From Lentisphaerota bacterium (GTDB lineage: Bacteria > Verrucomicrobiota > Kiritimatiellia > PWTM01), in contig VGWF01000044.1 of the NCBI GenBank assembly GCA_016873715.1, positions 1 to 34,617 of the forward strand: DNA of 34,617 bases. Direction: 5' to 3'. Below, in pieces: positions 5,163 through 26,302 of this stretch (its first letter is position 1; every line of letters begins with the position of its first letter). The notes below the pieces were generated by a model. That model did no database searches and had not been told where the DNA came from. It saw only the letters and a list, made by a program, of their open reading frames with translations. Made by a program: the position numbers and the translations under genes.

Positions 5163-5847
5163 CGCCGCCGGGCCACGCCTCGATCGCCCGCCACGCCCCG
5201 TGCATGTCGGCCGCGATCCGGTCGGCTCCGGCCTCGCGCAGACGTCCGGCCGGGAAACTCGACGTCACCCCGATGCACCCGGCGCCGGCCGACCGGGCGG
5301 CCCGGATGCCGTTGGGGGCGTCCTCGACCACGACGCAGGACGCGGCCGGCAGCCCCACCGCCGCCGCCGCCTTCAGGAAGATCTCGGGATCGGGCTTCTT
5401 GCGGACGATGTCGTCGCCCGTGATGCAGGCGTCGAACTGCGCCGCCGGCAGGCCGATCTCGCGCAGGTTGCCCTCGAGCTTCACGCGGTCCGCGCTCGTC
5501 GCGACCGCCGTCTTCAGGCCGCGGGCGCGGCAGGCGTGGACGAACTCCACCGCGCCGGGCAGGGGGCCGAGCCGGCCGCGGATGATCTCGAGGTAGATCG
5601 CATAGGTCCGGGCCTTGTCGTCCGGCATGCGCAGCGTCACCCCGTGCTTCTCCGCGACGCCGCCGAGGTAGCGGTCCTCGCCCGCGCCGACGAACGGAAG
5701 GAAGTCGTCCGGGTGGACCGTCGCGCCGTGGCGCTCGAGGAACATGCGGCAGGCCGCCTCGCAGATGAAGGGCTCCGAGTCGCAGAGCACGCCGTCCATG
5801 TCCAGCAGCACGCCGCGCAGCCCGCCCGGTCCGTCGTTCGGTTTCAT
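5155..5847 (-). CDS. HAD-family phosphatase (beta-phosphoglucomutase/CbbY-like)
   Basis: A 230-residue haloacid dehalogenase-superfamily hydrolase with a helical cap, probably acting on a small sugar phosphate. Motif I is LLDMDGVLCDSEP with nucleophile D16 and acid/base D18; motif II is TAVATSA; motif III is the Lys in RKKPDPEIF; motif IV is VVVEDAPNG. The DMDGVL-DSEP pattern and cap size fit the beta-phosphoglucomutase/phosphatase branch, but the substrate cannot be read from sequence. It converges on fmdB with an 8-bp overlap. No Shine-Dalgarno is visible; a promoter lies 8 nt before the ATG. Confidence 0.9.
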   Translation of the reverse strand: MKPNDGPGGLRGVLLDMDGVLCDSEPFICEAACRMFLERHGATVHPDDFLPFVGAGEDRYLGGVAEKHGVTLRMPDDKARTYAIYLEIIRGRLGPLPGAVEFVHACRARGLKTAVATSADRVKLEGNLREIGLPAAQFDACITGDDIVRKKPDPEIFLKAAAAVGLPAASCVVVEDAPNGIRAARSAGAGCIGVTSSFPAGRLREAGADRIAADMHGAWRAIEAWPGGVS

Positions 5848-5855
5848 GGCCGGCG

Positions 5856-8036: not shown

Positions 8037-9527
8037 ATGAGATGGCTGACGGCGTTCGCGTGGATCGGCGTGGCGGCGGCGACGGCGTGCGGGGCGGCGG
8101 AACTGCCCGAGGCGTCCTGGCAGAAGCTGCCTCGGTGGCGCGGATTCAACCTGCTCGAGAAGTTCAACGTCGGGAAGAACGAGCCGTTCCGCGAGGACGA
8201 CTTCCGGATGATCTCCGAACTCGGGTTCAACTTCGTGCGGCTGCCGATGGACTACCGCTGCTGGATCGTCGGCGGCGACTGGCGGCGGTTCAACGAGGCG
8301 ACGCTCAAGGAGATCGACCAGGCCGTGGAGTACGGACGGAAGCACGGCGTCCACGTGCTGCTGAACTTCCACCGCGCGCCGGGCTACACGGTGGCGAGCC
8401 CGAAGGAGGCGAAGTCGCTGTGGACCGACCCCGAGGCGCAGGAGGTCTGCGCCCTGCACTGGGGGACCTTCGCCCGGCGCTACAAGGGCATCCCGAACCG
8501 CAACCTCAGCTTCAACCTTCTCAACGAGCCGTCGGGCGTCGAGGCGGAGGCCCACGCGGCGGCGATCGGCAAACTGGTCGCGGCGATCCGCGCCGAAGAC
8601 CCGGAGCGGCTCGTCATCTGCGACTCGCGCCAGTGGGGCAACGCGCCGAGCGACGAACTGATCCCGCTGAAGGTCGCGCAGGCGACCCGTGGCTACCAGC
8701 CGATGGAGGTGACCCACTACAAGGCGTCCTGGGTCGGCATCAAGGAATGGACGAAACCCTCGTGGCCGATGCTCGACGCTTCCGGCTGGCTGGCGGGGCC
8801 GGGGAAGAAGAAGGAAGGCGCCCCGCTGCGCATCGAGGGGCCGTTCGAGGGCGTCACGACGATGCGCGTCCGCGTGCACGAGGTCTCCGCGCATTCGAAG
8901 CTCGTCGTGCAGGCCGACGGCCGGCCCGTCTTCGAGCACGTGTTCCGGTGCGGCCCCGGGACCGGCGAATGGACGAGGGCGGTCTACCGGCCGCAGTGGA
9001 AGGACTACCAGAACGTCTACGACCGCGACTACGAGGTCCCGGTGCCCGCCGGCACCCGGGTTCTGGTGCTGGACAACGTCGAGGGCGACTGGATGACCGT
9101 GAGCGAGGTGGCCCTGCGCGGGGCCGGCGGTGACGGGGCCGCCGCCGTTCTACGCCCGGCCTACGGGCAGAAGCCGGCGGTTCTGACCTATCGTCCCGGC
9201 GCATCGCCGGCCCTGCAGGCGCCGGGGCCCTCCGGTCGCGCGTGGCTGGAGGAGCGGTGCATCGCGCCGTTCCGCGAACTGCAGGGAAAGGGCGTGGGCG
9301 TGATGGTCGGCGAATTCGGCGCGTTCAACCATACGCCGCACCCGGTGGTGATGCGGTGGATGGCCGACTGTCTCGCGAACTGGAAGGACGCGGGATGGGG
9401 CTGGGCGATGTGGAACTTCCGGGGGCCGTTCGGAGTGCTCGACAGCGGGCGCGGCGACGTCGTCTACGAGGACTTCCAGGGCCACAAGCTCGACCGGGCG
9501 ATGCTCGACCTCCTGCGGGCGAATTGA
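8037..9527 (+). CDS. Secreted glycoside hydrolase, family 5-like, with inserted domain
   Basis: A 496-residue secreted enzyme predicted to cut beta-linked glucan or mannan-type chains. Residues 1-20 are a signal peptide. The TIM barrel begins RGFNLLEKF and DFRMISELGFNFVRLPMDY. The acid/base is E164 in SFNLLNEPSG and the nucleophile E426 in GVMVGEFGAFN, the spacing being far longer than normal because residues about 245-360 form an inserted beta-rich region (IEGPFEGVTTMRVRVHEV to DWMTVSEVALRG) that looks like a carbohydrate-binding sandwich. WAMWNFRGPFG near the end is the last barrel strand. The exact GH5 subfamily and substrate are not readable. Confidence 0.88.
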   Translation: MRWLTAFAWIGVAAATACGAAELPEASWQKLPRWRGFNLLEKFNVGKNEPFREDDFRMISELGFNFVRLPMDYRCWIVGGDWRRFNEATLKEIDQAVEYGRKHGVHVLLNFHRAPGYTVASPKEAKSLWTDPEAQEVCALHWGTFARRYKGIPNRNLSFNLLNEPSGVEAEAHAAAIGKLVAAIRAEDPERLVICDSRQWGNAPSDELIPLKVAQATRGYQPMEVTHYKASWVGIKEWTKPSWPMLDASGWLAGPGKKKEGAPLRIEGPFEGVTTMRVRVHEVSAHSKLVVQADGRPVFEHVFRCGPGTGEWTRAVYRPQWKDYQNVYDRDYEVPVPAGTRVLVLDNVEGDWMTVSEVALRGAGGDGAAAVLRPAYGQKPAVLTYRPGASPALQAPGPSGRAWLEERCIAPFRELQGKGVGVMVGEFGAFNHTPHPVVMRWMADCLANWKDAGWGWAMWNFRGPFGVLDSGRGDVVYEDFQGHKLDRAMLDLLRAN

Positions 9528-9575: not shown

Positions 9576-10526
9576 ATGAAGCCAGCACTGGGAATCGATT
9601 TCGGCGGGACGGCGGTGAAACTCGCGGTCGTGGACGAGCGCGGGACGATCGTCGCGGAGGACGGGTTTGCGACGGCGGGGCTCGAGGGCGTGCCCGGCTG
9701 GATCGCGGCGGTCGCGGACGCCGCGTCGCGCATGGGCGTCAACCCCGCGGCGATGGCCCGCTCGCTCGCGGGGATCGGCGTCGGCGTGCCCGGCTTCGTC
9801 GACTTCGACCGCGGCTTCATCCACAACCTCACCAACGTGCCCGGCTGGAAGGCCGTCGGTCTCGCCGGCCTGCTCCGCAAGCGCTTCGGCGTGCCGGCGG
9901 TGGTCGACAACGACTGCAACGCGATGGTCCTCGGCGAGTGCCGCTACGGCGTCGGCAAGGGCTACCGCCACGCCGTCTTCCTGACTCTGGGGACGGGCGT
10001 CGGCGGCGGGATCCTGATCGACGGGCGCGTCTTCCGCGGCGCCCACTCGATGGCCGGCGAGATCGGGCACGTGCCGATCGACCTGCACGGCGTCCGCACG
10101 CCGACCGGGCGGGGCGGGCTCGAGCAGTACGTCGGCAACCGGCAGATCGTCCGCAAGGCGCGCGCCGCGCTCCGCGGCCGGCGATCCTCGATGCCCGCGA
10201 TGGTCGGCGGCGACCTGCGCAGGCTGACGCCGCGCCACATCGCCGAGGCCGCCGCGAAGGGCGATGCCGTCGCGCGCGAGGTCTTCGACTACGTGGCCGA
10301 CTGCCTCGCGACGGCGCTGGCGGGCGTGACCTACCTGCTGCAGCCCGAGGCGTTCATCATAGGCGGCGGCGTCGCGGCCGCCGGCCCGGTGCTTTTCGGC
10401 CCGCTGCGCAAGCGGCTGGACGACCGCCTGAGCCCGTACTTCGCCGAGCGCATCAAGATCCTCCCCGCGAAGCTCGGCAACCGCGCGGGCGTGGTCGGCG
10501 CCGCCTCGCTGATTCTGCGGGCCTGA
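9576..10526 (+). CDS. ROK-family sugar kinase, zinc cysteines missing
   Basis: A 316-residue kinase of the ROK family, probably phosphorylating glucose or another hexose at O6 with ATP. Visible: phosphate-binding DFGGT (8-12), catalytic Asp in VVDNDCNA (D113), the second phosphate loop GTGVGGG (139-145) and GEIGH (161-165) with the zinc-type His. The family's CxCGxxGCxE zinc motif is replaced by TPTGRGGLE (175-183), with all three cysteines gone, so zinc is probably not bound there. No DNA-binding helix-turn-helix is present at the N-terminus, so it is a kinase rather than a repressor. The SDR gene begins 2 nt after its stop. Confidence 0.9.
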   Translation: MKPALGIDFGGTAVKLAVVDERGTIVAEDGFATAGLEGVPGWIAAVADAASRMGVNPAAMARSLAGIGVGVPGFVDFDRGFIHNLTNVPGWKAVGLAGLLRKRFGVPAVVDNDCNAMVLGECRYGVGKGYRHAVFLTLGTGVGGGILIDGRVFRGAHSMAGEIGHVPIDLHGVRTPTGRGGLEQYVGNRQIVRKARAALRGRRSSMPAMVGGDLRRLTPRHIAEAAAKGDAVAREVFDYVADCLATALAGVTYLLQPEAFIIGGGVAAAGPVLFGPLRKRLDDRLSPYFAERIKILPAKLGNRAGVVGAASLILRA

Positions 10527-10528
10527 GC

Positions 10529-11392
10529 GTGAAACGGCCCCTCGTGCAGCGGCGGACCGTGCTGGTCACCGGATGCTCGTCGGGCATCGGGCTGGCGACG
10601 GCGAGAGTTCTCCGGGGGCGCGGGTGGGAGGTTGTGCCCACGGCCCGGTCGGACGAGGACCTCGCGATGCTGCGGGCGGACGGCTTCCGTCCGGTGCGGC
10701 TCGACGTGGGCGACGGCGCGTCGGTCGCCGCCTGCGTCGCGGAGACGATGGAGATCCTCGGCGGCGCGGTCGGCGGTCTCGTGAACAACGCGGGGATCGG
10801 CGTGCCGGGCCCGCTGGAAGAGCTCCCGCGCGATGCATTGCGCCGCCAGTTCGAGGTCAACGTCTTCGGCGCGCAGGATCTGGCCAACCGCTTCATCCCC
10901 GTCATGCGCAGGCAGGGGTGGGGGCGGATCGTCAACGTCAGCTCGGTCCTGGGCCGGATCGTCCAGCCTATGACCGGCGCCTACTGCGCGAGCAAGTTCG
11001 CCCTCGAGGCGCTGTCCGACGCGCTCCGCGTGGAGCTCTGGAGCTCCGGCATCGGCGTGAGCCTGGTCGAGCCGGGGCCGATCGTCTCCGAGTTCCGCCG
11101 CAACGCCGCGGCGACGGCGGAGGCCTCGCTCGACATCGACGGGTCGCGCTACGCCGCGCACTTCCGCAGCGAGATCGAGCGCCGCAAGAAACAGGTGAAG
11201 AAGCCCGACGGCTTCACCCTCGGTCCCGAGGCCGTGGCCTCGCCGATCGCCCACGCGCTGGAGTCCGCGCATCCCCGCCGCCGCTACGGCGTCACGATCC
11301 TGGCCCATGCCGGGGCCTTCGCGGCGCGCTTCGTGCCGCCGGCCTTCCTGGACTGGGTCAACCGGCGCGGTCTGCCCGGCGAAGGCCGCTAG
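10529..11392 (+). CDS. Short-chain dehydrogenase/reductase
   Basis: A 287-residue classical SDR that oxidises or reduces a carbonyl/alcohol with NAD(P). The cofactor loop TGCSSGIG covers residues 14-21, NNAG follows in LVNNAGIG, the catalytic Ser is in IVNVSS, and Y152/K156 lie in YCASK. The C-terminal part (RFVPPAFLDWVNRR) resembles SDRs of the 17-beta-hydroxysteroid dehydrogenase-like type that act on lipids or other hydrophobic substrates; substrate unknown. The start is GTG at 10529, two bases after the ROK stop; no ATG lies before the Rossmann motif. Confidence 0.9.
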   Translation: MKRPLVQRRTVLVTGCSSGIGLATARVLRGRGWEVVPTARSDEDLAMLRADGFRPVRLDVGDGASVAACVAETMEILGGAVGGLVNNAGIGVPGPLEELPRDALRRQFEVNVFGAQDLANRFIPVMRRQGWGRIVNVSSVLGRIVQPMTGAYCASKFALEALSDALRVELWSSGIGVSLVEPGPIVSEFRRNAAATAEASLDIDGSRYAAHFRSEIERRKKQVKKPDGFTLGPEAVASPIAHALESAHPRRRYGVTILAHAGAFAARFVPPAFLDWVNRRGLPGEGR

Positions 11393-11491: not shown

Positions 11492-14461
11492 ATGACACAC
11501 AAGCGGGACGGCGTGCGGGCGGAGCGGGTGCCGTTGGAACGGGCGGCGCCGCCGGACTCGTCGAAGGTCCTGAATCCATCCCCCGGCGGCTTCCCGGCCG
11601 GTGTGCCGGTCGCGCTGGTGATCCTCGCCGCGGGGAAGGGGACGCGGTTCGGGACGGCGCCGAAGTGCGTGCAGCCGGTGCGCGGCGTTCCGCTCGCGCG
11701 CCACTCCATCGACGCCTTCCGCCGTGTGCATCCGGCTCCGTGCATCTGCCTGGTCGGCCACGCGCACGGGGAGGTCATGGGCAGGCTCGGCGCGGACAAC
11801 ACGTACGTGCTCAGCGCGAACCCGACCGGCGGCACGGCGTTCGCGGCGTTCGAGGCGCTGGGCGTGACGGGGCTGGAGGCGGCGGACCCGCTGCTCGTCA
11901 TCACGATGGGCGACCGCGTCGTGCCGGAGTGCATCTTCCGGCGGCTGCTGGAGACGCACCGGGCCGGGGAGCGCGAGGCGGACCTGACCCTGCTGTCCGT
12001 CCGCTACGTTCCGCCCGCGCAGCACGGCAAGGGCCGCATCCTGCGCGGGGCGTCGGGGCGGATCGAGCGCATCCTCGAGCAGCGCGACATCGATGCGATC
12101 GCCGATCCGGCGGCGCGCCGCCGCTACGACGAGATCACCGAGGGCAACTGCCCGCTCTACATCGTGCGGGCGCGCGGGCTGCGGCGGCTCGGGGACCTGC
12201 ACAACGACAACGCGCAGGGGCAGTACTACATCACGGACCTCGTCGCGAGGATCGCGGGCGGCGGCGGCGACGTGCGGACCCTGACGGTGACGGAGGATGA
12301 GCCGGAATACGCGCTGCTCTGCTCCGACGTGACGCGGCCGGCCGACCTCGCGCGCCTCGAATCGCTCCTCGCCGCGCGCGAGTCGGGGGGGACGTCCGCC
12401 GGCTCCTCCGCCGCGGCGGCCGCGGAGGCGATCGCCGCCGATCGCGCGCCCGGCCAGACCGCGTCCATCGCGGCGCAGTTGCGGGAGATCCACGAGGCCG
12501 CGGTGCGCGAGGGCATGGGCTTCGACGCCGACCGTCCCGCCGCGATCGGCATCTCCGGCGGGCGACTTCGGATCGCCTTCATGCACCCGGACATGGGCAG
12601 GTTCTACGGGCCGGCCTGGCAGATGCCGACCGGCGCCGCCGACGCCGCCGGGCGTCAGCAGATCGCGCTCGTCGCGCAGGACTCGGAGGACGGCCACATC
12701 CGCCACTTCCCCGCGGCGCTGCAGTTCCGCGAGAAGATCGACGCCGTGCCCGCCGCCAATCCCGGCATGTACCCGGGCGAGGACATCGACGACCTCTACA
12801 AGTACGAGGAGTTCGGCACGCGGATGGCCGAGCGCATGCTGCTGTCGCTCGGCTACTTCTCGGAGCAGGAACTCCAGGCGCGCCGCGGCAAGGGCCTGCC
12901 GCTGCCGCCGCCCTCGCTCTGGGTCGCCAACAACATGCGGCGGCCGTTCTCGCTCATCTGCAACGCGATCGCGTCGATGCGCACGCTGCGCCGGGGGCCG
13001 GAGGGCGAGCGTGTCCAGCAGCGCCTCGGCATGAACCGGTTCCGCGGCCTGCGGATCGCGTCGACCGGGGCGATCCCGCGCGGCGGGTTCTCGAGCTCGT
13101 CGGCGCTGACGGTGGCGGTGAAGAACGCGATCAACGTGCTCTACGGGCTGGGCATCCCCCCGGACACGCTGGTCCATCTCGCCTGCCAGGCCGAGTACGG
13201 CACGGGCGTCCGCGCCGGCTCGCTCGACCAGGCGACGGAGCAGAAGGGCAAGCACGGGCAGGGGGCGCTGATCTCGTCCAACCCCCGCGACAACTACCGC
13301 ACGATCGGCGTCTTCCCGGTGCCGGCGGACCGGTTCCGCATGATCTTCCCGTTCAGCGTCGATCGCGACCGCGAGGCCTGGCGGTGGTCCGGCGGGGCCT
13401 ACGCGGCCGACGCGACGACCGCCGTGCCGACGACGACGGAGATGCGGAAGCTGACCGGCAAGGCGGCGGAGATGGCCGCGATCCTGACGCGGCTTCCGCT
13501 GCAAACGGACTTCTTCGCGCTGGTCGAGGAGGATCTGGTCCGCGACGGCGAGATCGGGCCGGCGACGCGCGCCCGCGTCTGCGGGCTTCTCCGCTCGCTG
13601 CCGCTGTGCGCCTCGCAGGATGACCTGCGGATCCGGTTGATGGCCGGGCGCGACGACCTCGCGGCGCAGTGGTCCGCGGAGCCGGGCGTCGGCGCCGCCG
13701 ACGCCGCCGCGCGTGCGGACGTGGCGATCGCCGCGCTGTTCGCCGGCTGGCGGACGCCGCGGCTGCGCCGCAGGCTGGCCGGCGGGAGCGTGGTCGAGGA
13801 GGACGGCGTGCCGCTGCGCGCGATGGTCGCCTACCTCTTCCTCGAGGTCGCGCGCTGCTTCCGCATGATCCGCCATCCGGAGGAGTGGATCGGGTCCGTC
13901 ACCCGCTCGCAGCGGGGCGACCGCTCGTTCGTCATCGACCCCGCCCGCCTGCCGCCGGCGGAGGAGCTGGTCGTCCGGGCCGGGTGGGAGCGCGGCCTCG
14001 AGGGCCCGCCGCTGCTCGACGCCTGGCTCGCGCGCGCGGGCGCCGTGCCCTTCGATTTCAACCGCGGTCTTTCCGACGCCGACCTCGACCGCGCCGGCGG
14101 TCCCGCCTTGGCCGACATCGAGGGCGGCAGCTTCTTCCGCGGACTCGCGTTGCTCGACCTGGTCGAGGCGATGCTCAAGCGCGCCTTCGGCGACGATGCG
14201 ACCGCGATCCGCGTCAACGCCGCCGGGCAGGGCGACTACTTCCAGGTCCACATCGACACCACGCGGGTCGGGATCGACGCGGTGAAGGACTTCATCCGCC
14301 GCGCGTTCTACCAGCGCTTCGACCTGGCCCCCGCGCTCCAGTTCGTCGAACCCCATCCCGGCGGCGGGGCCGTCGGCGTCCGCCTCGACCGCTTCGACAT
14401 GCTGCCGGACGTCGTCCGCCATCTCGAGATCCTCGGGTGCGGCGAGGCGCGGATGGCGTGA
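11492..14461 (+). CDS. Fusion of GlmU-like sugar-1-phosphate nucleotidyltransferase and GHMP sugar kinase
   Basis: A 989-residue two-domain enzyme. Residues 40-300 are a nucleotidyltransferase closest in pattern to the uridylyltransferase half of GlmU: LAAGKGTRFG (45-54), PKCVQPV, MGDRVVP at the metal site, GKGRILR, and NDNAQGQYYITDL (238-250). An Ala-rich linker (300-325) leads to a GHMP kinase: sugar-binding ISGGRLRIAFMHPDMGRF (about 354-371), ATP loop GAIPRGGFSSSSAL (527-540), LDQ at 578-580, and a C-terminal glycine motif NAAGQGDYF (about 909-917). Together these would phosphorylate a free sugar at C1 and then load it onto UTP. The order resembles bifunctional Fkp, but the transferase type is different. 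The start is uncertain; no ribosome site precedes ATG 11492, and the first 38 residues look non-conserved. Confidence 0.85.
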   Translation: MTHKRDGVRAERVPLERAAPPDSSKVLNPSPGGFPAGVPVALVILAAGKGTRFGTAPKCVQPVRGVPLARHSIDAFRRVHPAPCICLVGHAHGEVMGRLGADNTYVLSANPTGGTAFAAFEALGVTGLEAADPLLVITMGDRVVPECIFRRLLETHRAGEREADLTLLSVRYVPPAQHGKGRILRGASGRIERILEQRDIDAIADPAARRRYDEITEGNCPLYIVRARGLRRLGDLHNDNAQGQYYITDLVARIAGGGGDVRTLTVTEDEPEYALLCSDVTRPADLARLESLLAARESGGTSAGSSAAAAAEAIAADRAPGQTASIAAQLREIHEAAVREGMGFDADRPAAIGISGGRLRIAFMHPDMGRFYGPAWQMPTGAADAAGRQQIALVAQDSEDGHIRHFPAALQFREKIDAVPAANPGMYPGEDIDDLYKYEEFGTRMAERMLLSLGYFSEQELQARRGKGLPLPPPSLWVANNMRRPFSLICNAIASMRTLRRGPEGERVQQRLGMNRFRGLRIASTGAIPRGGFSSSSALTVAVKNAINVLYGLGIPPDTLVHLACQAEYGTGVRAGSLDQATEQKGKHGQGALISSNPRDNYRTIGVFPVPADRFRMIFPFSVDRDREAWRWSGGAYAADATTAVPTTTEMRKLTGKAAEMAAILTRLPLQTDFFALVEEDLVRDGEIGPATRARVCGLLRSLPLCASQDDLRIRLMAGRDDLAAQWSAEPGVGAADAAARADVAIAALFAGWRTPRLRRRLAGGSVVEEDGVPLRAMVAYLFLEVARCFRMIRHPEEWIGSVTRSQRGDRSFVIDPARLPPAEELVVRAGWERGLEGPPLLDAWLARAGAVPFDFNRGLSDADLDRAGGPALADIEGGSFFRGLALLDLVEAMLKRAFGDDATAIRVNAAGQGDYFQVHIDTTRVGIDAVKDFIRRAFYQRFDLAPALQFVEPHPGGGAVGVRLDRFDMLPDVVRHLEILGCGEARMA

Positions 14462-15490: not shown

Positions 15491-16882
15491 ATGCATGCAC
15501 CCATCGACCGTCGTTCCTTCCTGAAGACCACCACCGCGGCCGGCGCCGGGCTCTCGCGTGCCGCCTCGCGTCTGGCCCCGCTGCTGGCGGCCGCCGCCGC
15601 GCCGGCCCCCGCCGCCCCGGGCGTCGCGGCGCCGTCGGCGGCGAAGCCCGCGCTGCTCGGCGGCGCGCCGGTCCACACGGGCGGCTGGTCGCGGTGGCCC
15701 CAGTGGCGGGAGGCGTGGGAGGACGACCTCCTCAAGGTCTACCGCAGCGGCAAGTGGTTCCGGGGCTCCGACACGCGGGTGGAGGATTTCGAGACGGCCT
15801 ACGCGAAGCTGCTCGGCGCGAAGAAGTGCCTCGCGACCGCCAGCGGCACGACGGCCCTGATGGTCGCGCTCCACGTGATGGACGTCGACGCCGGCGACGA
15901 GGTGATCGTGTCGCCCTACACGTTCATCGCGACCTACAACGCGATCCTCAACGCGCATGCGCTGCCGGTGTTCGCGGACACCGACCCCGCGACGCTCAAC
16001 ATGGACCCGGCGACGATCGAGAGCCGCATCACCGACCGGACGCGCGCGATCATGCCGGTGCACATCTTCGGGATGTCGTGCGACATGGACCCGATCCTCG
16101 CGATCGCGAAGGCGCGGGGCTTCGCGGTGGTCGAGGACGCCTGCCAGGCCTGGCTGGCCGAGTACAAGGGGCGCAGGTGCGGCACGATCGGCGATCTCGG
16201 CTGCTTCAGCTTCCAGGAGTCGAAGCACCTGCCCGCCGGCGAGGGCGGCGCCGTGGCCGGCATGAGCGAGGCGCTGATCGACAAGTGCAACTCGTTCCAC
16301 AACTGCGGCCGGGCGTGCGGCACGAACAAGGGATCGGGGAGCTTCACCCGGGGGAACAACTGCCGGATGACGCAGGCCCAGGCGGTGATCCTGCTCCAGC
16401 AGCTCGGCAAGCTGGTCGAGGACACGGCCGTCCGCCGCCGCAACGCGGACTACCTCGGCGAACAGCTCCGGCAGATCCCGGGGATCCAGACCATGCGGCT
16501 GCCGGAGGGAAGCCGCCCGGTCTGGCACCTCTACCCGTTCCGCTACGGCGCCACCGAGTTCGCCGGGCTCTCCCGCGATGCCTTCATGAAGGCGCTCAAC
16601 GCCGAGGGAATCCCGTGCTCGAGCGTGTACCGCGAACAGTACTTCGACGGCCTGCTCGACGAGGCCATCGCCTCGCGCGGCTTCAAGCGCCTCTGGAGCG
16701 CCCAGCGGCTGAAGGCCTATCGCGAGAGCCTCAAGGACCTGCGCGGAAACCAGCAGGTGTGCGCGACGACGGTGGCTCTGCCGCAGACCCTGCTGCTCTC
16801 CGACCGGGCCGGCGTCGATCACATCGTGGAGGCGATCCGGAAGATCCGGGTCAACGCCGCCGCGCTGGCGAAGGCCTCATGA
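15491..16882 (+). CDS. Tat-exported DegT/DnrJ/EryC1/StrS aminotransferase homologue, copy 1
   Basis: A 463-residue PLP enzyme of the DegT family, whose members mostly transfer an amino group to keto-sugars. The N-terminus carries a twin-arginine signal, DRRSFLKTTTAAGAG, followed by an Ala/Pro-rich region to about residue 58. The fold then starts with LLGGAPVHTGGW. Visible: SGTTALMVAL (PLP phosphate), the Asp in VVEDACQAW, and the PLP lysine K245 in SFQESKHLPAGEGG. All key residues are kept, so it is probably active or at least binds PLP. Tat export would allow transport with PLP already bound. The second DegT gene begins 13 bp later. Confidence 0.9.
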   Translation: MHAPIDRRSFLKTTTAAGAGLSRAASRLAPLLAAAAAPAPAAPGVAAPSAAKPALLGGAPVHTGGWSRWPQWREAWEDDLLKVYRSGKWFRGSDTRVEDFETAYAKLLGAKKCLATASGTTALMVALHVMDVDAGDEVIVSPYTFIATYNAILNAHALPVFADTDPATLNMDPATIESRITDRTRAIMPVHIFGMSCDMDPILAIAKARGFAVVEDACQAWLAEYKGRRCGTIGDLGCFSFQESKHLPAGEGGAVAGMSEALIDKCNSFHNCGRACGTNKGSGSFTRGNNCRMTQAQAVILLQQLGKLVEDTAVRRRNADYLGEQLRQIPGIQTMRLPEGSRPVWHLYPFRYGATEFAGLSRDAFMKALNAEGIPCSSVYREQYFDGLLDEAIASRGFKRLWSAQRLKAYRESLKDLRGNQQVCATTVALPQTLLLSDRAGVDHIVEAIRKIRVNAAALAKAS

Positions 16883-16895
16883 CCGGGAGACGACC

Positions 16896-18224
16896 ATGAC
16901 GACGCCCCGCGACCGGGATTCGAAGTGGACGCGGCGGAGCTTCCTGAGGACCGGCGGCGCCGCGACGGCCGGGCTGGCGGCGGCCCGCGGGGCCCGCGCC
17001 GGGGCGCTGGCGATCGACGGCGGGCCGAAAACCGTGACGGTGTCGCCGCAGAAGGTGTCGGCGCTGACGCGCTGGCCGCGCTACGGCGCCGCCGAGAAGG
17101 GCCGGCTGCACGAACTGATCGACTCGGGCGCGTTCTACGACGAGCTGCCGCTCTTCGAGAGCGAATGGCAGGCCTACACGCAGGCGCCGTTCGTCAAGGC
17201 GCACATGAACGGGTCCAGCGCGCTGACGAGCATGTACTTCGCGCTCTCCCTCGACGTGCCCCCGGGCAGCGAGGTTCTCGTGCCGACCTACACGTTCTTC
17301 TCGGCGTGCCTCGCGATGCGCTTCTCGAACCTGGTGCCGGTCTTCGTCGACATCGACCCGGAGACCGCGTGCTTCGACCTCGAGGATGCGAAGCGGAAGC
17401 TGACGCCGCGCGTGTGCGCCGTCGAGGCGATGCACTCGTGGGGCCTGCCGTGCGAGATGGACCGGATCTGCGGGTGGGCGAAGGAGAAGGGGATCGTGCC
17501 GCTCGAGGATTGCGCGCACGCGCACGGCGCCTCGATGCAGGGGCGCAAGGTCGGCACCTGGGGCGAGATGGCGATCTTCAGCTTCCAGGCGTCGAAGCCG
17601 CTCCCGTGCGTGGAGGGCGGCATGGGCATGTACCGGACGCGCGAGTACTACGAGCGGGCGTCCGCCTTCGGACACTACGAGGCGCCGGCGAAGTTCGCGA
17701 AGGACAGCCCGGTGCGCGCGTACGCGAACACCGGCTACGGGCAGAAGTACCGCATGCACCCGTTCGCCGCGGCGGTCGCGCGGATGCAGCTGAAGGGGCT
17801 CGACGAGGTGAACGCGATCGCGAAGCGAAACGTGCGCGCCCTCAACGACCGGCTGGTGCAGCTGCCGGGCATCCGGGAACCCCGCTGCCGGCCCGACCAG
17901 GACCGCGTCTACTACCACGCGAACATGCTGCTGATGGACTTCCGGAAGCTCGGCGTCTCCCGCGACCGCCTCGTGAAGGCGCTGGAGGCCGAGGGGGTTC
18001 GCGCGAGCTTCTGGGACTACCCCCAGCAGCACACGCACCGGATCTACGCCGAGGCGAAGTGGTGGCACCACCCGCCGGTGATCCCGGAGCGCATGCCCGG
18101 GTGCGAGTACGTCAACGCGAACCACCTCTTCCTCCCGCTGATGTACGGCGAGGCGCAGGAGCTGGTCGAGCAGTACGCGGTCGCGTTCGAGAAGGTCTGG
18201 GCGCGCCGCGCGGCGCTGACGTAG
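16896..18224 (+). CDS. Tat-exported DegT/DnrJ/EryC1/StrS aminotransferase homologue, copy 2
   Basis: A 442-residue DegT-family protein. The Tat signal WTRRSFLRTGGAATAG is followed by an ARA-type cleavage region near residue 36. Visible: NGSSALTSM, LEDCAHAHGA with the PLP-ring Asp, and K234 in SFQASKPLPCVEGG. It is clearly diverged from the preceding copy (different loop lengths, and MHSWGLPCEMD where copy 1 has VHIFGMSCDMD), so the pair is old and may act on different substrates or form a heteromer. GGGAG precedes the ATG. The propeller gene follows after 22 bp with a strong ribosome site. Confidence 0.9.
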   Translation: MTTPRDRDSKWTRRSFLRTGGAATAGLAAARGARAGALAIDGGPKTVTVSPQKVSALTRWPRYGAAEKGRLHELIDSGAFYDELPLFESEWQAYTQAPFVKAHMNGSSALTSMYFALSLDVPPGSEVLVPTYTFFSACLAMRFSNLVPVFVDIDPETACFDLEDAKRKLTPRVCAVEAMHSWGLPCEMDRICGWAKEKGIVPLEDCAHAHGASMQGRKVGTWGEMAIFSFQASKPLPCVEGGMGMYRTREYYERASAFGHYEAPAKFAKDSPVRAYANTGYGQKYRMHPFAAAVARMQLKGLDEVNAIAKRNVRALNDRLVQLPGIREPRCRPDQDRVYYHANMLLMDFRKLGVSRDRLVKALEAEGVRASFWDYPQQHTHRIYAEAKWWHHPPVIPERMPGCEYVNANHLFLPLMYGEAQELVEQYAVAFEKVWARRAALT

Positions 18225-19620: not shown

Positions 19621-21002
19621 GCGCGCGGGCCAGGGCCTTCGCCGCGCTCCTCGCCGCGGTCGCGTGCGTTTCCGTTCGGGGCGACGGACTTCGCCTGGCC
19701 GTGTTCGATGCGGATATCACGCCCCCGGTCGGCAGCGCGATGGCCTACGATCCCGTGGTCCGCGTCGGGGAGATGACGCTGCGCGGCCGCGGCGTCGTGC
19801 TGCTCGGCGCGGGACGTCCGATCGTGCTCTGCGCGCTGGACTGGATCGGTGTCTACAACGGGGCGCATGACCGGGTCCGGGCGGAGCTGGCCCGTGCCGC
19901 GGACACGGATCCCGACCGCGTGGCCGTGCATTGCGTGCACCAGCACGATGCGCCCCGCATGGGGACGGACGCCGAGGCGATCCTGCGGGAGAACGGATGG
20001 CCGGCCGGAGCGTGGGACAGCGCGCACACGCGCCCGGCGATCCGTCGCGTCGCCGCGGCGCTCCGGGCCTCGCTGACGAACGCGCAGCCCGTCACCCATG
20101 CGGGGTGGGGCGTCGCGCGCGTGGAGTGCGTCGCTTCGAACCGCCGGATTCCGGGTCCGGACGGACACATCCAGACGCGCTTCACGACGGAGCGGAACCC
20201 GGAGAAGCGGGCGGCCCCGGAGGGCGTCATCGATCCCGAGGTCAGCGTCGTGAGCCTCTGGAACGGCGAGGCGCCCGTGGCGGTCCTCAGCTACTACGCG
20301 TGCCACCCGCAGAGCTACTACCGGACCGGCGTGCCGAGCCCCGACTTCCCCGGCATCGCGCGCTTCATCCGCGGTCAGGGCGTGCCGCAGGCGCTGCACG
20401 TCCACTTCACCGGCGCCGCGGGCAACGTCGGCGCCGGCAAGTACAACGACGGATCGAAGGAGAACCGCATGCTGCTGGCGCAAAGGCTGGCGGACGGCAT
20501 GAAGCGCGCGTTCGAGGCGACAGCGAAGACGCCGCTGGGGGTGGGGGACGTGGACTGGCGGTCCGAACGGGTCCGGATCCCGGCGGCATCCCACGTCAGG
20601 GAGGACGAACTGGTGGAGCGCCTGAAGGCCGGTCCCGGGGCGCCCGGCGCGCCGGCGCAGCCCGATGCGTCGGCCGCCGTCCGCCTCGCGTTCCTCCGGC
20701 GCGTTCAGGCGGGTCACGAGACCCCGATGCCCTGTCTCCGGCTCGGCTCGATTCGCATCCTTCACATGCCGGGCGAGCTGTTCGTGGAGTACCAGATCGC
20801 GGCGAAGGCGATGCGGCCGGACCTGCATGTCGCGCTGGCGGCCTACGGTGACGGGGGACCCGGTTACATCGGGACGGCCAGGGCCTACGCCGAGGCCGGA
20901 GGGTATGAGACGGAGCCGCGATCGAGTCCCGTTCCACCGGAGATCGAGGGCATCCTGACGGCCGCCGTGCGGCGGCTGCTGGATGCCGGCGCCGCCCCCT
21001 GA
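19617..21002 (+). CDS. Secreted neutral-ceramidase-like metal hydrolase homologue, copy 1
   Basis: A 461-residue exported protein resembling the N-terminal domain of neutral/alkaline non-lysosomal ceramidase. GTG at 19617 overlaps the previous stop as GTGA and opens a signal peptide (AFAALLAAVACVSVRG). The domain begins AVFDADITPPVGSAMAY. Zinc-type histidines are in CVHQHDAP and YYACHPQSYY. The ceramidase nucleophile loop GDVSPN is replaced by GAAGNVGAGKYNDG with no serine, so true ceramidase activity is unlikely. Such homologues are common in planctomycetes and relatives next to sugar genes and may act on carbohydrate amides or esters; this is inference. Confidence 0.8.
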   Translation: MSARARAFAALLAAVACVSVRGDGLRLAVFDADITPPVGSAMAYDPVVRVGEMTLRGRGVVLLGAGRPIVLCALDWIGVYNGAHDRVRAELARAADTDPDRVAVHCVHQHDAPRMGTDAEAILRENGWPAGAWDSAHTRPAIRRVAAALRASLTNAQPVTHAGWGVARVECVASNRRIPGPDGHIQTRFTTERNPEKRAAPEGVIDPEVSVVSLWNGEAPVAVLSYYACHPQSYYRTGVPSPDFPGIARFIRGQGVPQALHVHFTGAAGNVGAGKYNDGSKENRMLLAQRLADGMKRAFEATAKTPLGVGDVDWRSERVRIPAASHVREDELVERLKAGPGAPGAPAQPDASAAVRLAFLRRVQAGHETPMPCLRLGSIRILHMPGELFVEYQIAAKAMRPDLHVALAAYGDGGPGYIGTARAYAEAGGYETEPRSSPVPPEIEGILTAAVRRLLDAGAAP

Positions 21003-21015
21003 GAGGAGAGTCGCC

Positions 21016-22380
21016 ATGCGCACGTGGATCCGGTTCCTCCTTCCCGCGCTTGCCGGCCCGGCGGTGACCTGCGCCGCGGAGTTTCGCGCGGGCGTTGCAC
21101 GGACCGATGTCACGCCGCCGACGCCTTTCTGGCTCTCCGGCTATGCGGCGCGGACGAACCCCGCGACGGTCGTCCGGAACCGGCTCTGGGCCAAGGCGCT
21201 CGCGCTCGACGACGGCGAGGGGGGGCGCGCCATCATCGTCACGGCGGATGTCATCGGCTTTCCGCGCGAGATGACCGACGCGATCGCGGAGCGAATCGGG
21301 ACGCAGCATGGGTTCCGGCGGGACCAGGTCCTCTTCAATGCGTCCCACACCCACTACGGGCCGGTGGTGAGGTCGAACCTCTCGACGATGTACGCGTTCG
21401 ACGAGCCCGAGCGCGCGCGGATCCAGGCCTACGGCGGGCGCCTCATGGACGACATCGTCGCCCTCGTCGGCGCCGCGCTGGCCGACCGCTCCCCCGCCCG
21501 CATCGAGTGCGGGCACGGCCGCGCCGTATTCGCCGCCAACCGCCGCGAAGCGACGCCCGGCGGCGTGAAGCTCGGCGTCAATCCGTCGGGCCCGGTCGAT
21601 CCCGACGTGCCCGTGCTGCGCGTGACCGCGCCCGACGGACGGTTGCGTGCGGTGCTCTTCGGCTACGCGTGCCACGGCACGACGCTGGCGGCGCGTTTCA
21701 CGGAGATCGACGGCGATTTCGCCGGCTTCGCCCAGCGCGCGGTCGAGGCCGCCCATCCGGGCGCCACCGCCCTCTACATGATCCTCTGCGCGGCCGACCA
21801 GAACCCGAACCCGCGCGGCGAGTACGAGCACCTCGAGCGCCACGGCCGGGAACTGGCCGGCGCGGTCGAGGCCGTGCTGGCAGGCTCGATGAAGCCGGTG
21901 CGCGCGCCGGTCCGAACCGCGCACGGGATTGCGGATCTCGCGTTCGCGCCCCATACGCGCGAGGCGTTCGAGAAGGAGGCGGCCGGAACCGACGGGGCGG
22001 CGCCGACGCCGCACAAGAAGCGCCGCGCGCAGAAGATGCTGGAGGCCTACGACCGCGGCGAGCCGGTGCGGACGCTGCCGTTGCAGGTTCAGGCGATCCG
22101 TCTCGGCGACGACTTCACCCTGCTCGGCCTCAGCGGCGAGGTGGTGGTCGAGTACGCCCTGCGCGCCAAGGGCGAGTTCCCGGCGGAGAACCTCGCGGTC
22201 GCCGGTTACTGCAACGATGTCAGTTGCTACATCCCGTCCGCCGCGGTCCTGCGCGGCGGCGGCTACGAGCCGGACACGAGCATGATCTACTACGGCCAGC
22301 CCGGCCCCCTGTCGACGAACGTCGAGGAGGAGGTCTTCGCGGCGATCCGCCGGACCCTGCGCCAGGTCGGCGCGAAGTGA
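21016..22380 (+). CDS. Secreted neutral-ceramidase-like metal hydrolase homologue, copy 2
   Basis: A 454-residue protein with a signal peptide (WIRFLLPALAGPAVTCAAE) and the same fold start, AGVARTDVTPPTPFWLSGY. Zinc-type histidines are in NASHTHYGP and GYACHGTTL. Where ceramidases have the GDVSPN serine loop it reads CAADQNPNPRGEYEH, again without serine. It is only distantly similar to the preceding copy. AGGAGAG lies just before ATG 21016, 13 bp after copy 1. It closes this block; repeats and a new promoter follow. Confidence 0.82.
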   Translation: MRTWIRFLLPALAGPAVTCAAEFRAGVARTDVTPPTPFWLSGYAARTNPATVVRNRLWAKALALDDGEGGRAIIVTADVIGFPREMTDAIAERIGTQHGFRRDQVLFNASHTHYGPVVRSNLSTMYAFDEPERARIQAYGGRLMDDIVALVGAALADRSPARIECGHGRAVFAANRREATPGGVKLGVNPSGPVDPDVPVLRVTAPDGRLRAVLFGYACHGTTLAARFTEIDGDFAGFAQRAVEAAHPGATALYMILCAADQNPNPRGEYEHLERHGRELAGAVEAVLAGSMKPVRAPVRTAHGIADLAFAPHTREAFEKEAAGTDGAAPTPHKKRRAQKMLEAYDRGEPVRTLPLQVQAIRLGDDFTLLGLSGEVVVEYALRAKGEFPAENLAVAGYCNDVSCYIPSAAVLRGGGYEPDTSMIYYGQPGPLSTNVEEEVFAAIRRTLRQVGAK

Positions 22381-22420: not shown

Positions 22421-22491
22421 CGGAAGATGACAACCGAATGGGGGCAACCGAATGGGGACGCGGCCGGGAGGGCCGCGCTCCGCGCGGCCGC
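22421..22491 (+). repeat. Hairpin-bearing repeat, copy A
   Basis: The unit has CAACCGAATG twice (22431-22440, 22445-22454) followed by a perfect hairpin GGCCGCGC-TCC-GCGCGGCC at 22471-22489. It recurs 120 bp downstream. Confidence 0.85.
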
Positions 22492-22540
22492 ACGCGGAAC
22501 CACGGATAGCACGGATCCCACCGATTCGACGAGGACGGCC

Positions 22541-22613
22541 CGGAGAATGACAACCGAATGGGGGCAACCGAATGCGGACGCCGGATCGGGAGGGCCGCGC
22601 TCCGCGCGGCCGC
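22541..22613 (+). repeat. Hairpin-bearing repeat, copy B
   Basis: The same unit as copy A, with CAACCGAATG at 22551 and 22565 and the identical hairpin at 22593-22611. A few bases are inserted between the two parts. Confidence 0.85.
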
Positions 22614-22634
22614 GAACGGATCCGCGTGAACCGT

Positions 22635-22663
22635 TTGCCGCGCGCATCCCGCCGGGCTACAAG
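22635..22663 (+). promoter_or_regulatory. Candidate promoter of the GH123-type gene
   Basis: TTGCCG (22635-22640), 17 bp, TACAAG (22658-22663, 4 of 6 matches). The ATG follows 36 nt later with GGGAGG at 22689-22694. Confidence 0.45.
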
Positions 22664-22699
22664 ACGGTTTCGACACGTGCACGGTGGCGGGAGGACGCG

Positions 22700-25600
22700 A
22701 TGAAGGCAATGATCGGACTGGGTCTGGCCGCGACCCTGGCGGCGGGCGCGGCGGTGCCGTGGGCGGACGGGCTCTACATCGGCAACGGCGGCGACTGGAG
22801 GCAACGCATCGCCATCACCGTGACCAACGCCGGCGGCCACGCGGTCGAGGGCGCTCCGGTCGAACTCGGCGTCGGAGCGGGTCCGGGCGAGATCGCACTG
22901 GCCGGGGCCGCCGCGGATGCGATCCGCGTGTGTGACTCGAACGGAACCGAGTTCCTTTGGGCGATCCGCGATGCGGCCGGCCGGCCGGTCCGCCGCGGTC
23001 CCATCCCCTCCGGCGCGACGCTGATCGTTCCGGTCGAGTGTCCTTCGGGCGCGTCGACGGCGCTCCACGTCTACTTCGACAATCCGTCCGCCTGGGCGGT
23101 GCCGGACTTCCTGGATGCGGCCGCGGGCTTCCGCAACGGCGGCGTCGAAGCCGGCGAGGGGGATACGCCGGAGGGGTGGGCGCATGACGGCGGGGATGAT
23201 GCCCACGTCGCATCGTGGTCCACCGAGCGTCCGCGCTCGGGCGCGAAGTGCCTCAAGACCGTCGTGGCGCCCGGTGCGGAACCGACCTGGATCGCCACGC
23301 GCCAGCACGGGATCGGCGTCGCGGCCGGGGCGCGCTATGTCTTCCGGGCCTGGGTCCGCGCGGAGGGCGTGACGGGGAGCGTCGGCTGGTACGTCCATGT
23401 CGGCAACGCGAAGAAGCCGCTGGCGATCAGCCCGATGGCGACGGTCCCCGGCGGCACGTTCGACTGGCGCGAGGTGAAGCTGGAGTTCACCGCGCCCGCG
23501 GATGCCGACCGCGCCGACCTCGGCACCGTCCTGCGCGGCACCGGCGCCGCGTGGTTCGACGACGCCTCGCTCGAGCGCCTCGATGCCAGCCCGCTCCGCG
23601 CTGCAGCCTCCGCGCCGGAGCGAAGGCCGGAGTTCCGCGAAACCGGCGGCGATGCGCCGTGGCCGGCCGACGAGGGCGGGGCCGTGTGGACGTGGCGCTT
23701 CCCCGTGCGAGTGCGGAATCCCGGCGAAGCTCCGCTCGATGCCGGGCTGCTGGCGGTGGATCTCGCCGGGCCGCTGGCGCGTCTCCATGGGCGCGCGGAT
23801 CCCGACCGGATCGTCGTGACGGACGGCGGCCGCGCCGTGCCGTTCAACCGGTTGGGGACGATCGTTCTCTTTCCCGCGACGGTCGAGGGCCGGTCGCTGC
23901 GCACGTTCCACGTCTGCTTCCGGCCCGGAGACGGGCGGGCGTCGTCCGCCGGCCCGGCCGTCCGCGAGTACGCCGCCAACCCCGCGCTGCCCGGCGGCGA
24001 GACGCGCGAGGCCGTGACCGGGGTGGAGCGGGCGGAGTACGAGCGGCTGCTGTCGGGCGCCGCGAACCTCGCGAGGAATCCGAGCTTCGAATCCGGCGCC
24101 GGGACGCCGGAAGACTGGACGGGGGCCGAACCGCGCGTCGGGGCGGGACGGGCCGACATGGCCGCCGAGGCGCCCGGTCTCTTCGGTGCGCGAGCGGTGC
24201 GGATGACGGTGCCGTCCGCCGCGGCGGGCGACTGGCGCGGATGGCGGCAGACGATCCCGGTCGGGCCCGGCCAGACGCTCCTGTTCGCGTCGTGGCTCAA
24301 GTGCCGCGACCTGGCCGGCGGCGGGCTCCAATTGCACGCCCACTGCCGCACCGCCGCGGGCGCGATGTGCTCGAGCGGTGCGTTTCAGGGCGCCGGACCC
24401 GGCATCTCCGGCACACGCGACTGGACGCTGGTGCAGGGGCTCTTCACGATGCCGGCCGACGCGGCGCGATTCGACCTGCACCTGACGATGAACGCCGCGG
24501 GCACGGCGTGGCATGACGGTGTCGTGGTCTGCCGCGTCACACCGGCCGTGGCCGGCGGCCTCCAGACGCGTCCGTCGTCCCCCGGATCCGGCCCCGCCGC
24601 GCGGCCGGTCAACGCGATCGTCAAAGTCTTCCGGGACGACGCTCCGCCGGCGTCAGCGGCGCCGGCGCGGCTCTCGGCGGCGCGGGGCGAGCGCGAGGCG
24701 CTGCAGATCGCGGTCCGGGGACCGCGGGCGGTTGCGGGCGTGCGCGTCGAGGCCCCCGCCCCGCGCGGCCGCTGGGGCCGGAGTCTTCCGGCGCCGGAGA
24801 TCGGCGTCGTCGGGTATGTTCCGGTCGATCACGTGACGAGTTACTACCAGTCCGACAGCCCCGCGTGGCATCGCAAGTTCCCGACGCGGCAGGGCGCCTC
24901 CGACGGCTGGCCGGGCTGGTGGCCCGACCCGATCCTGCCGCGCGACGGATTCGACCTTGCCGCCAACGAGACGCAGCCCGTGTGGCTGACCTTCCGCGTG
25001 CCCGCCGACGCCCGGCCGGGGGAGTACCGCGGCACGGTCCGGTTCGCCGCCGGCGGAGCCGTTCTCGCCGAGGCGCCGTACACGGTCCGCGTGTGGAACT
25101 TCGCGCTGCCCGACGAGCGTCACGTCAAGGCGATCTACGACGTGCGGCCGAATCTCCGGTACTGGCAGCCGGCGGAGGGAACGGCGGACGAGGTGCGCCG
25201 CGCGATGTGGCGGTTCATGTCCGAACGCCGCCTGTGCCCCGACACGATCCGGCCCGAGCCGAAGCTCGCGTGGCGCGACGGGAAGGTCGAGGCCGATTTC
25301 GCCGCGTTCGACGAGGCCGCCGCGTACTACTTCGACGAGCTCCACATGCCGCACATGTACACGCCGTGGATGTTCTACGGTTTCGGCTGGGGACACCCGC
25401 CGTCCCCGAGGTTCGGCGAGACGCCGTACGAGGGCGAGTCGCCGTACGAGGGGGCCGACCGCGCGGTCCTGCGTCCCGAGTTCAAGCGCGCCTACCAGGC
25501 CTGCCTGAAGGCCTTCTGGGACCATCTCAAGGCGAGGGGATGGGACCGGAAATGCGTGCTCTACATCTCCGACGAGCCGTACGACAGCCAGGAACCCATC

Positions 25601-26302
25601 CGCCGCCAGATGAAGGCGCTCTGCGACATGATCCACGAGGTCGACCGCGCGATCCCGGTCTATTGCAGCACGTGGCATCACCAGCCCGAATGGGACGGCG
25701 TCCTCGACGTGTGGGGCGTCGGCCACGACGGCCGCGTGCCCGTGGCGAAACTCGCGGAGATCCGGAAGTCCGGCGCGCGCGTGTGGTGGACCACCGACGG
25801 ACAGATGTGCACCGACACGCCCTACTGCGCGATCGAGCGCATGCTGCCGCACTACTGCTTCAAGTACGGCGCCGAGGCCTACGAGTTCTGGGGCATCGAC
25901 TGGCTCACCTACGATCCCTACGAGTTCGGCTGGCACGCCTACATCCACCAGAGCGGCTCGCCGGGGACGTCGACCTGGGTCCGCTACCCGGCGGGCGACG
26001 GCTACCTCGCGTACCCCGGCCGGCCCTTCGGCCGCATCGAGCCGGTGCCCTCCATCCGGAGCGAGCAGGCGGGCGAGGGGAGCGAGGACTACGAGTACCT
26101 CCACATGCTTCGCGAACGCATCGAGGCGGCCGCCCGCGCCGGGCGCGCCACCGGCGACGCCGTCCGCGTGCTTGCCGCCGCGCAGGACCTGGTCTCGATC
26201 CCGAATTCCGGCGGGCGCTACTCGACGCGATTCCTGTCCGACCCCGACGCCGTGTTCCGGGTCAAGGAGGAGGTCGCCCGCGCCATCGAGGCGCTGCGAT
26301 AG
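22700..26302 (+). CDS. Large secreted GH123/DUF4091-type glycoside hydrolase with N-terminal sandwich domains
   Basis: A 1200-residue secreted protein. Residues 1-23 are a signal peptide. Residues 24-150 are a beta-sandwich; 150-300 and about 455-625 are two carbohydrate-binding-like jelly rolls (the second starts NLARNPSFESG), with a further sandwich between. After an Ala/Pro linker, residues 636-810 form the N-terminal sandwich and 810-1200 the TIM barrel typical of GH123/DUF4091. The catalytic Asp-Glu pair is D958-E959 in YISDEPYD. GH123 enzymes release beta-GalNAc with substrate assistance; the exact substrate here is inferred only from family. The ATG at 22700 has a good ribosome site and promoter; upstream in-frame codons lie in repeats. 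Confidence 0.88.
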   Translation: MKAMIGLGLAATLAAGAAVPWADGLYIGNGGDWRQRIAITVTNAGGHAVEGAPVELGVGAGPGEIALAGAAADAIRVCDSNGTEFLWAIRDAAGRPVRRGPIPSGATLIVPVECPSGASTALHVYFDNPSAWAVPDFLDAAAGFRNGGVEAGEGDTPEGWAHDGGDDAHVASWSTERPRSGAKCLKTVVAPGAEPTWIATRQHGIGVAAGARYVFRAWVRAEGVTGSVGWYVHVGNAKKPLAISPMATVPGGTFDWREVKLEFTAPADADRADLGTVLRGTGAAWFDDASLERLDASPLRAAASAPERRPEFRETGGDAPWPADEGGAVWTWRFPVRVRNPGEAPLDAGLLAVDLAGPLARLHGRADPDRIVVTDGGRAVPFNRLGTIVLFPATVEGRSLRTFHVCFRPGDGRASSAGPAVREYAANPALPGGETREAVTGVERAEYERLLSGAANLARNPSFESGAGTPEDWTGAEPRVGAGRADMAAEAPGLFGARAVRMTVPSAAAGDWRGWRQTIPVGPGQTLLFASWLKCRDLAGGGLQLHAHCRTAAGAMCSSGAFQGAGPGISGTRDWTLVQGLFTMPADAARFDLHLTMNAAGTAWHDGVVVCRVTPAVAGGLQTRPSSPGSGPAARPVNAIVKVFRDDAPPASAAPARLSAARGEREALQIAVRGPRAVAGVRVEAPAPRGRWGRSLPAPEIGVVGYVPVDHVTSYYQSDSPAWHRKFPTRQGASDGWPGWWPDPILPRDGFDLAANETQPVWLTFRVPADARPGEYRGTVRFAAGGAVLAEAPYTVRVWNFALPDERHVKAIYDVRPNLRYWQPAEGTADEVRRAMWRFMSERRLCPDTIRPEPKLAWRDGKVEADFAAFDEAAAYYFDELHMPHMYTPWMFYGFGWGHPPSPRFGETPYEGESPYEGADRAVLRPEFKRAYQACLKAFWDHLKARGWDRKCVLYISDEPYDSQEPIRRQMKALCDMIHEVDRAIPVYCSTWHHQPEWDGVLDVWGVGHDGRVPVAKLAEIRKSGARVWWTTDGQMCTDTPYCAIERMLPHYCFKYGAEAYEFWGIDWLTYDPYEFGWHAYIHQSGSPGTSTWVRYPAGDGYLAYPGRPFGRIEPVPSIRSEQAGEGSEDYEYLHMLRERIEAAARAGRATGDAVRVLAAAQDLVSIPNSGGRYSTRFLSDPDAVFRVKEEVARAIEALR

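Follow-up and report, generated by a model that had tools for sequence, protein, structure and literature searches.

The window analysed here, a stretch of 34,617 nucleotides from a Lentisphaerota bacterium, contains a long reading frame which raises the question of whether a single protein can take a free sugar all the way to its activated form. A sequence-only reading of this DNA had placed there an undescribed-looking fusion of a GlmU-type uridylyltransferase, devoid of the acetyltransferase half, with a GHMP sugar kinase, which would convert a free sugar, in two steps, to a UDP-sugar. The frame is present at the coordinates proposed (Table 1), and kinase and pyrophosphorylase domains do co-occur in its single product, so that the idea of two successive steps in one chain holds at the level of domains. 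The whole protein is modelled by AlphaFold2 with a mean pLDDT of 89, and it is a real enzyme whose probable role is to bring a free sugar to its activated form.

Table 1. Layout of the fusion gene and of the genes surrounding it, in positions of the window.
Feature	Residues	Position	Strand	Evidence or remark
Whole fusion gene, 989 aa, ATG start, stop included		11492..14461	+	
GlmU-type nucleotidyltransferase domain	40-290	11609..12361	+	Pfam NTP_transf_3, phmmer/hmmsearch to GlmU, Foldseek to GlmU, residue conservation
Linker, with low-confidence stretch 299-304	291-317	12362..12442	+	AlphaFold2 pLDDT, secondary structure
Galactokinase-type GHMP kinase half (672 residues)	318-989	12443..14458	+	Pfam GHMP_kinases_N, hmmsearch, AF2, Foldseek
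Kinase motif 1, GGRxRIAFMHPDMxRFxGPAWQMPxGA, near-wholly invariant	356-382	12557..12637	+	Family alignment
Kinase motif 2, TG.IP.GGFSSSSA, phosphate loop	526-538	13067..13105	+	Family alignment
Catalytic loop RAGSLDQATE, D579 at the galactokinase catalytic Asp	574-583	13211..13240	+	Family alignment, hhalign
Kinase motif 3, variant form RVNAAGQGDYF	907-917	14210..14242	+	Family alignment
GH5-type hydrolase		8037-9527	+	First of run
ROK sugar kinase		9576-10526	+	Two genes upstream of fusion
SDR oxidoreductase		10529-11392	+	Directly before fusion
DegT/DnrJ/EryC1-type aminotransferases, adjacent pair		15491-16879, 16896-18221	+	Downstream of fusion
Neutral-ceramidase-like protein		20983-22380	+	Downstream of fusion
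GH123		22427-26302	+	PF13320, E 4e-14

With regard to the N-terminal half, several lines of evidence agree on a GlmU-type transferase. Pfam recognises NTP_transf_3 (PF12804, MobA-like) at residues 43-159 above the gathering score (E 3.9e-11), phmmer against the PDB matches residues 43-266 to GlmU chains (E 1.2e-20), and the family profile reaches GlmU among PDB sequences at 4e-30 in hmmsearch. The first 20 Foldseek matches of the predicted structure are GlmU structures, including UDP-GlcNAc complexes, with 24-30% identity over 265-283 columns. The protein nevertheless falls far below every NCBIfam GlmU cut-off, scoring 97.4 against 366.85 bits with TIGR01173, of which only model positions 2-218 of 452 are matched; the C-terminal left-handed beta-helix acetyltransferase domain is missing, as had been claimed, and the kinase occupies the remainder. 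The motif LAAGKGTRFG lies at residues 45-54 and NDNAQGQYYITD at residues 238-249, with GGT at 113-115 and GDR at 140-142 in between. Residues R52, T115, D141, E196, N219 and D279 are kept in all 64 aligned family members and K58 in 63 of them; R52, K58, T115, D141, E196 and N219 presumably correspond to Arg18, Lys25, Thr82, Asp105, Glu154 and Asn169 of GlmU, and D279 stands at what we take to be the position of Asn227, a metal ligand.

The base site appears to be less conventional. S108, inside a family-specific loop S-x-N-P-x-G-G-T, is Ser in 58 and Thr in 6 of the 64 members and presumably occupies the position of the uracil-contacting Gln76 of GlmU, while M139 would stand at that of Tyr103. 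The LAAG form is found in pyrimidine-nucleotide enzymes, which makes UTP likely and CTP possible; a pyrimidine base, most likely that of UTP, is thus suggested by the motif, but the replacement of the uracil-contacting Gln means that base specificity may differ. Overall, the half shares with GlmU the predicted fold, the LAAGKGTR and N.NAQG.YY.TD motifs, the Mg2+ and phosphate residues and the sugar-site Glu and Asn, and departs from it in this Gln and in the missing beta-helix half.

The C-terminal half appears to be a kinase of the galactokinase/GalNAc-kinase type. Pfam places GHMP_kinases_N (PF00288) at residues 507-581 (E 6e-11, 42.8 bits against a gathering score of 22.3), phmmer against the PDB weakly matches galactokinase and GalNAc kinase, and the family profile finds galactokinase among PDB sequences at 8e-6 in hmmsearch, whereas the NCBIfam galactokinase model TIGR00131 gives 19.5 bits against a cut-off of 226.65. 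Modelled alone with AF2, this half reaches a pLDDT of 90.8 and a pTM of 0.88, and its top 50 Foldseek matches are all GalNAc kinase, galactokinase or Gal3, with human GalNAc kinase best, yeast Gal1 and human galactokinase included, and no fucokinase or Fkp chain among them. The structure prediction and comparison proposed earlier therefore align the N-terminal half with GlmU and the C-terminal half with GalNAc kinase and galactokinase. The kinase half is about 12% identical to any solved kinase, with TM-scores of 0.5-0.74 and large rmsd, partly because of inserts.

All the GHMP motifs that had been claimed are located in this half, including LDQ (residues 578-580), with motif 3 in a variant form. 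R358, H365, D367 and D579 are kept in 64 of 64 aligned members, and hhalign pairs the D579 loop with GIMDQ of galactokinase. The register of motif 1 was set by ungapped inspection and by the strand-turn-strand of the model, since the local profile-profile alignment reached motif 2 and the catalytic loop only and the global one was unsuccessful. Aligned ungapped with PGRVNLIGEHTDY of galactokinase, GGRxRIAFMHPDM keeps Arg37, His44 and Asp46 and does not match the sugar motif GR.N.IGEH.DY, of which R, H and D are retained and E becomes M. The position of galactokinase Glu43, the motif 1 Glu that we take to recognise the C6 hydroxyl and to be common to galactokinase and GalNAc kinase, is occupied by M364, Met in all 64 members, whereas the galactokinase-like proteins found in the window's class carry either Glu or Asn. 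This invariant Met suggests that sugar specificity may differ.

Furthermore, the kinase half is enlarged. Motif 2 starts 172 residues after the start of motif 1, whereas the spacing in eight galactokinases from the window's class is 92-93, and motif 3 follows motif 2 at 380 residues, against 209 in the same eight, which amounts to about 80 and about 170 extra residues, respectively. The sequence-only reading had given about 155 residues between motifs 1 and 2, a fair figure once motif lengths are subtracted from 172, and had left out the larger insert between motifs 2 and 3. Many family-invariant columns lie in the inserts, which thus seem to belong to the enzyme rather than being noise. Compared with GALK2 (GalNAc kinase) and galactokinase, the half therefore shares the predicted fold, the motif order and the R...H.D and LDQ catalytic residues, and differs in the low identity, the inserts, the Met for Glu43 and the NAAGQGD variant of motif 3.

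The joining of a sugar kinase and a pyrophosphorylase in one chain is already known as a kind. Fkp of Bacteroides fragilis (949 aa), which had been named as the bifunctional precedent, consists of an N-terminal GTP-using pyrophosphorylase and a C-terminal fucokinase and makes GDP-fucose (PMC11982464). It resembles the present fusion in being bifunctional, in domain order (pyrophosphorylase before GHMP kinase), in length and in the conversion of a free sugar into an NDP-sugar. Conversely, its transferase, an alpha/beta domain with a beta-helix domain that uses GTP, differs from the GlmU-type one found here, as had been stated, and its kinase belongs to the fucokinase branch rather than the galactokinase type. 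With the window protein as query, the Fkp model PRK13412 is not among the best 25 of 29 NCBIfam matches at E<=1, which are led by GlmU and galactokinase and none of which exceeds its cut-off. Fkp stands as a precedent, but an incomplete one, since in DrGKUP of zebrafish a putative UDP-glucuronate pyrophosphorylase is followed, in the same chain, by a glucuronokinase; this type of fusion was reported in fish, frogs, tunicates and fungi, while bacteria were reported with the single transferase only, the bacterial and archaeal members of the DrGKUP transferase group being unfused (PMC3938481). DrGKUP likewise has an N-terminal nucleotidyltransferase and a C-terminal GHMP sugar-1-kinase and turns a free sugar into a UDP-sugar with UTP, as the present protein would. 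It is set apart by the published description of its length and transferase type: a transferase of about 260 aa, aligned by its authors with RmlA-type bacterial enzymes, instead of a GlmU-type one, and a kinase of 357 aa against 672 residues. No paper on the pairing of a GlmU-type with a galactokinase-type domain was found in the literature searched, which mostly excludes subscription papers. The description of the fusion as undescribed therefore seems to hold for this domain pair, which would be new, and not for one-chain sugar kinase-pyrophosphorylases as such.

The search for the same fusion in other genomes that the sequence-only reading had proposed was made as one scan of 84,980 species genomes, which returned 75 further loci with relatives in several phyla, most spanning both domains. 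The 63 relatives that were aligned are 49-69% identical to the window protein, and the resulting alignment of 64 members from several phyla has about 150 invariant columns; judging from this conservation, the domain pairing is not due to chance. The analysis thus shows two domains with their predicted folds and conserved active-site residues, and it shows them fused in every close relative recovered. Going by record names, the carriers comprise Kiritimatiellae, Lentisphaerae, Opitutaceae and other Verrucomicrobia; Phycisphaerae, Thermoguttaceae and Sedimentisphaerales among the Planctomycetes; and Acidobacteria (Bryobacterales), Bacteroidales, Armatimonadetes, a Spirochaetales, a Trueperaceae and a Neomarinimicrobiota bin. 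The fusion is rare and patchy wherever it is present: genome samples gave 7 of 289 for the phylum of the window and 3 of 297 for that of an acidobacterial carrier (G306), whereas the single occurrences among 392 genomes (phylum of G302) and 273 genomes (order of G294) are the query genomes themselves. Among 346 genomes of the window's class, the kinase half has 17 strong matches. Of these, 14 lie in frames of 976-1059 aa and the other 3 are truncated where the contig ends; no stand-alone kinase half was seen in these 346 genomes or in the 297-genome sample.

In a quick tree, the eight phylum names require 17 label changes where the minimum possible is 7, which suggests that the gene has been transferred across phyla, but binning errors and paralogy are other ways of arriving at a raised count. 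With regard to vehicles, viral contigs contained no relative, PHROGs gave no significant match, and the plasmid matches were GlmU-like and partial, none reaching 80% of the query. Two copies of the fusion are interrupted, that of L049 by one in-frame TAG (10394-10396) and that of L062 by a frameshift in the transferase half (about 5686-5854), through assembly error or decay.

The reading favoured here, which we regard as likely, is that of a bifunctional nucleotide-sugar salvage enzyme in which an anomeric kinase and a pyrophosphorylase convert a free sugar into an NDP-sugar. The galactokinase-type half would transfer phosphate from ATP to C1 of a free monosaccharide; D579 would act as its catalytic base, and motifs 2 and 3 would bind the phosphates of the nucleotide. 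The GlmU-type half would then combine the sugar-1-phosphate with a pyrimidine NTP, most likely UTP, to yield NDP-sugar and pyrophosphate, via R52/K58 and with Mg2+ on D141/D279. We infer the two reactions and the order in which they run, as well as base and sugar; for the sugar we lean towards a galacto-configured one or a HexNAc. More tentatively, and with more doubt than belief, the fusion can be seen as a new bifunctional sugar-activating family, spread between phyla by gene transfer, whose product is a nucleotide sugar with an unforeseen sugar or base, such as the UDP- or CDP-form of a sugar for which no one-chain salvage enzyme is known.

The gene neighbourhoods support sugar salvage in general without fixing the sugar. 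In the window, the fusion is the fourth gene of a same-strand run. A conserved operon was sought by clustering the flanking genes of 76 loci, and no partner family occurs at more than 10; sugar transport genes (MFS, ABC permeases) and glycosidases turn up repeatedly on the same strand, in low numbers. The salvage of HexNAc, as proposed from the sequence, in which GalNAc or GlcNAc freed by glycosidases would become HexNAc-1-P and then UDP-HexNAc, is possible but rather unlikely. It would agree with the best Foldseek matches of the two halves, human GalNAc kinase and GlmU, with the nearby ROK kinase, and with the GH123 downstream, which is present on the same strand as had been noted, albeit at a distance of 8 kb that spans several other genes. 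Genes for a NagZ-like beta-N-acetylhexosaminidase and an AmpG-like transporter also lie directly downstream of the fusion in two related Opitutaceae (L010 and L011), and a NagA-like deacetylase gene lies upstream of it in a Bryobacterales bin (L057). However, such amino-sugar neighbours are found at about 4 of the 76 loci, the motif 1 Glu is replaced by the invariant Met, and other loci have a galactokinase-like gene (two genes past the fusion in one Bacteroidetes bin), an XylE-type (xylose-type) sugar porter (in two Verrucomicrobia), a sulfate transporter or sulfatases.

That same Met, hydrophobic at the Glu43 position while the His and Asp of the motif are retained, would suit a sugar altered at C6, such as galacturonate, L-arabinose, fucose or similar, released from plant or algal polysaccharide, and sulfatase-type genes at 10 loci, alpha-L-fucosidases at 2 and an esterase at L018 related to pectin and xylan acetylesterases point the same way. 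The activation of such a sugar is nonetheless improbable, since the case is argued from residue comparison, since galactokinase-like paralogues within the class carry Asn at this position, which thus varies without a known change of sugar, and since a divergent Fkp-like protein that may serve fucose is already encoded in the window's genome.

The fusion could also take the place of a GlmU or galactokinase that the cell lacks: in the genome of the window, which is 97.6% complete, no GlmU exceeds the family cut-off, the best GlmU match being the fusion itself, and no galactokinase is found at E 1e-40. As a general role this is very unlikely, because 9 of the 35 carriers examined have their own GlmU above the cut-off and carriers G110, G145 and G364 have a galactokinase-family gene, so that the fusion does not merely substitute for one or the other, and near relatives devoid of the fusion live without it. 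AmgK and MurU are two separate proteins rather than one chain, and the kinase fold of AmgK is unrelated. A fused analogue of this peptidoglycan-recycling pair making UDP-MurNAc, promising at L010 and L011 with their NagZ-like and AmpG-like genes and given that AmgK and the GlmU-like MurU perform the same two steps, anomeric phosphorylation and uridylyl transfer (PMC5371407), is highly improbable, since AmpG-like genes were found in just 5 of 288 genomes from the class of the window and were absent from the window's genome and from carriers G012 and G365, and since the fusion is too patchy for cell-wall housekeeping.

If both activities of the favoured salvage enzyme are real, a single protein supplied with ATP and one NTP would carry a free sugar through to its nucleotide-activated form, and could serve glycan synthesis in the manner of Fkp for GDP-fucose. 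A name could then also be put to roughly a thousand residues of highly conserved protein that curated families split into two weak domain matches, in polysaccharide-degrading hosts known mostly from metagenomes. The sugar and base sites, invariant and yet non-canonical, make the question of the substrate directly testable.

Some minor observations concern the surrounding genes and genomes. The first DegT aminotransferase begins with a TAT-type export signal, for which the second gives a weak match; such a signal is unusual in sugar aminotransferases. A lookalike of the ceramidase-like gene directly follows the fusion in L057 (12894-14204), and a relative adjoins it in L043. The window's genome also has GalU, a short UDPGP match on contig C97 as the one hint of a source for UDP-GlcNAc and, on contig C159, the divergent Fkp-like protein (L093, 973-3093, minus strand; 315 of 721 bits), so that it may hold two different fused sugar kinase/pyrophosphorylases. 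Lastly, the window's class contains a second galactokinase-like type (L128-L149), with GNHTDYN and GLLDQ replacing GEHTDYN and GIMDQ, which possibly acts on a different sugar.
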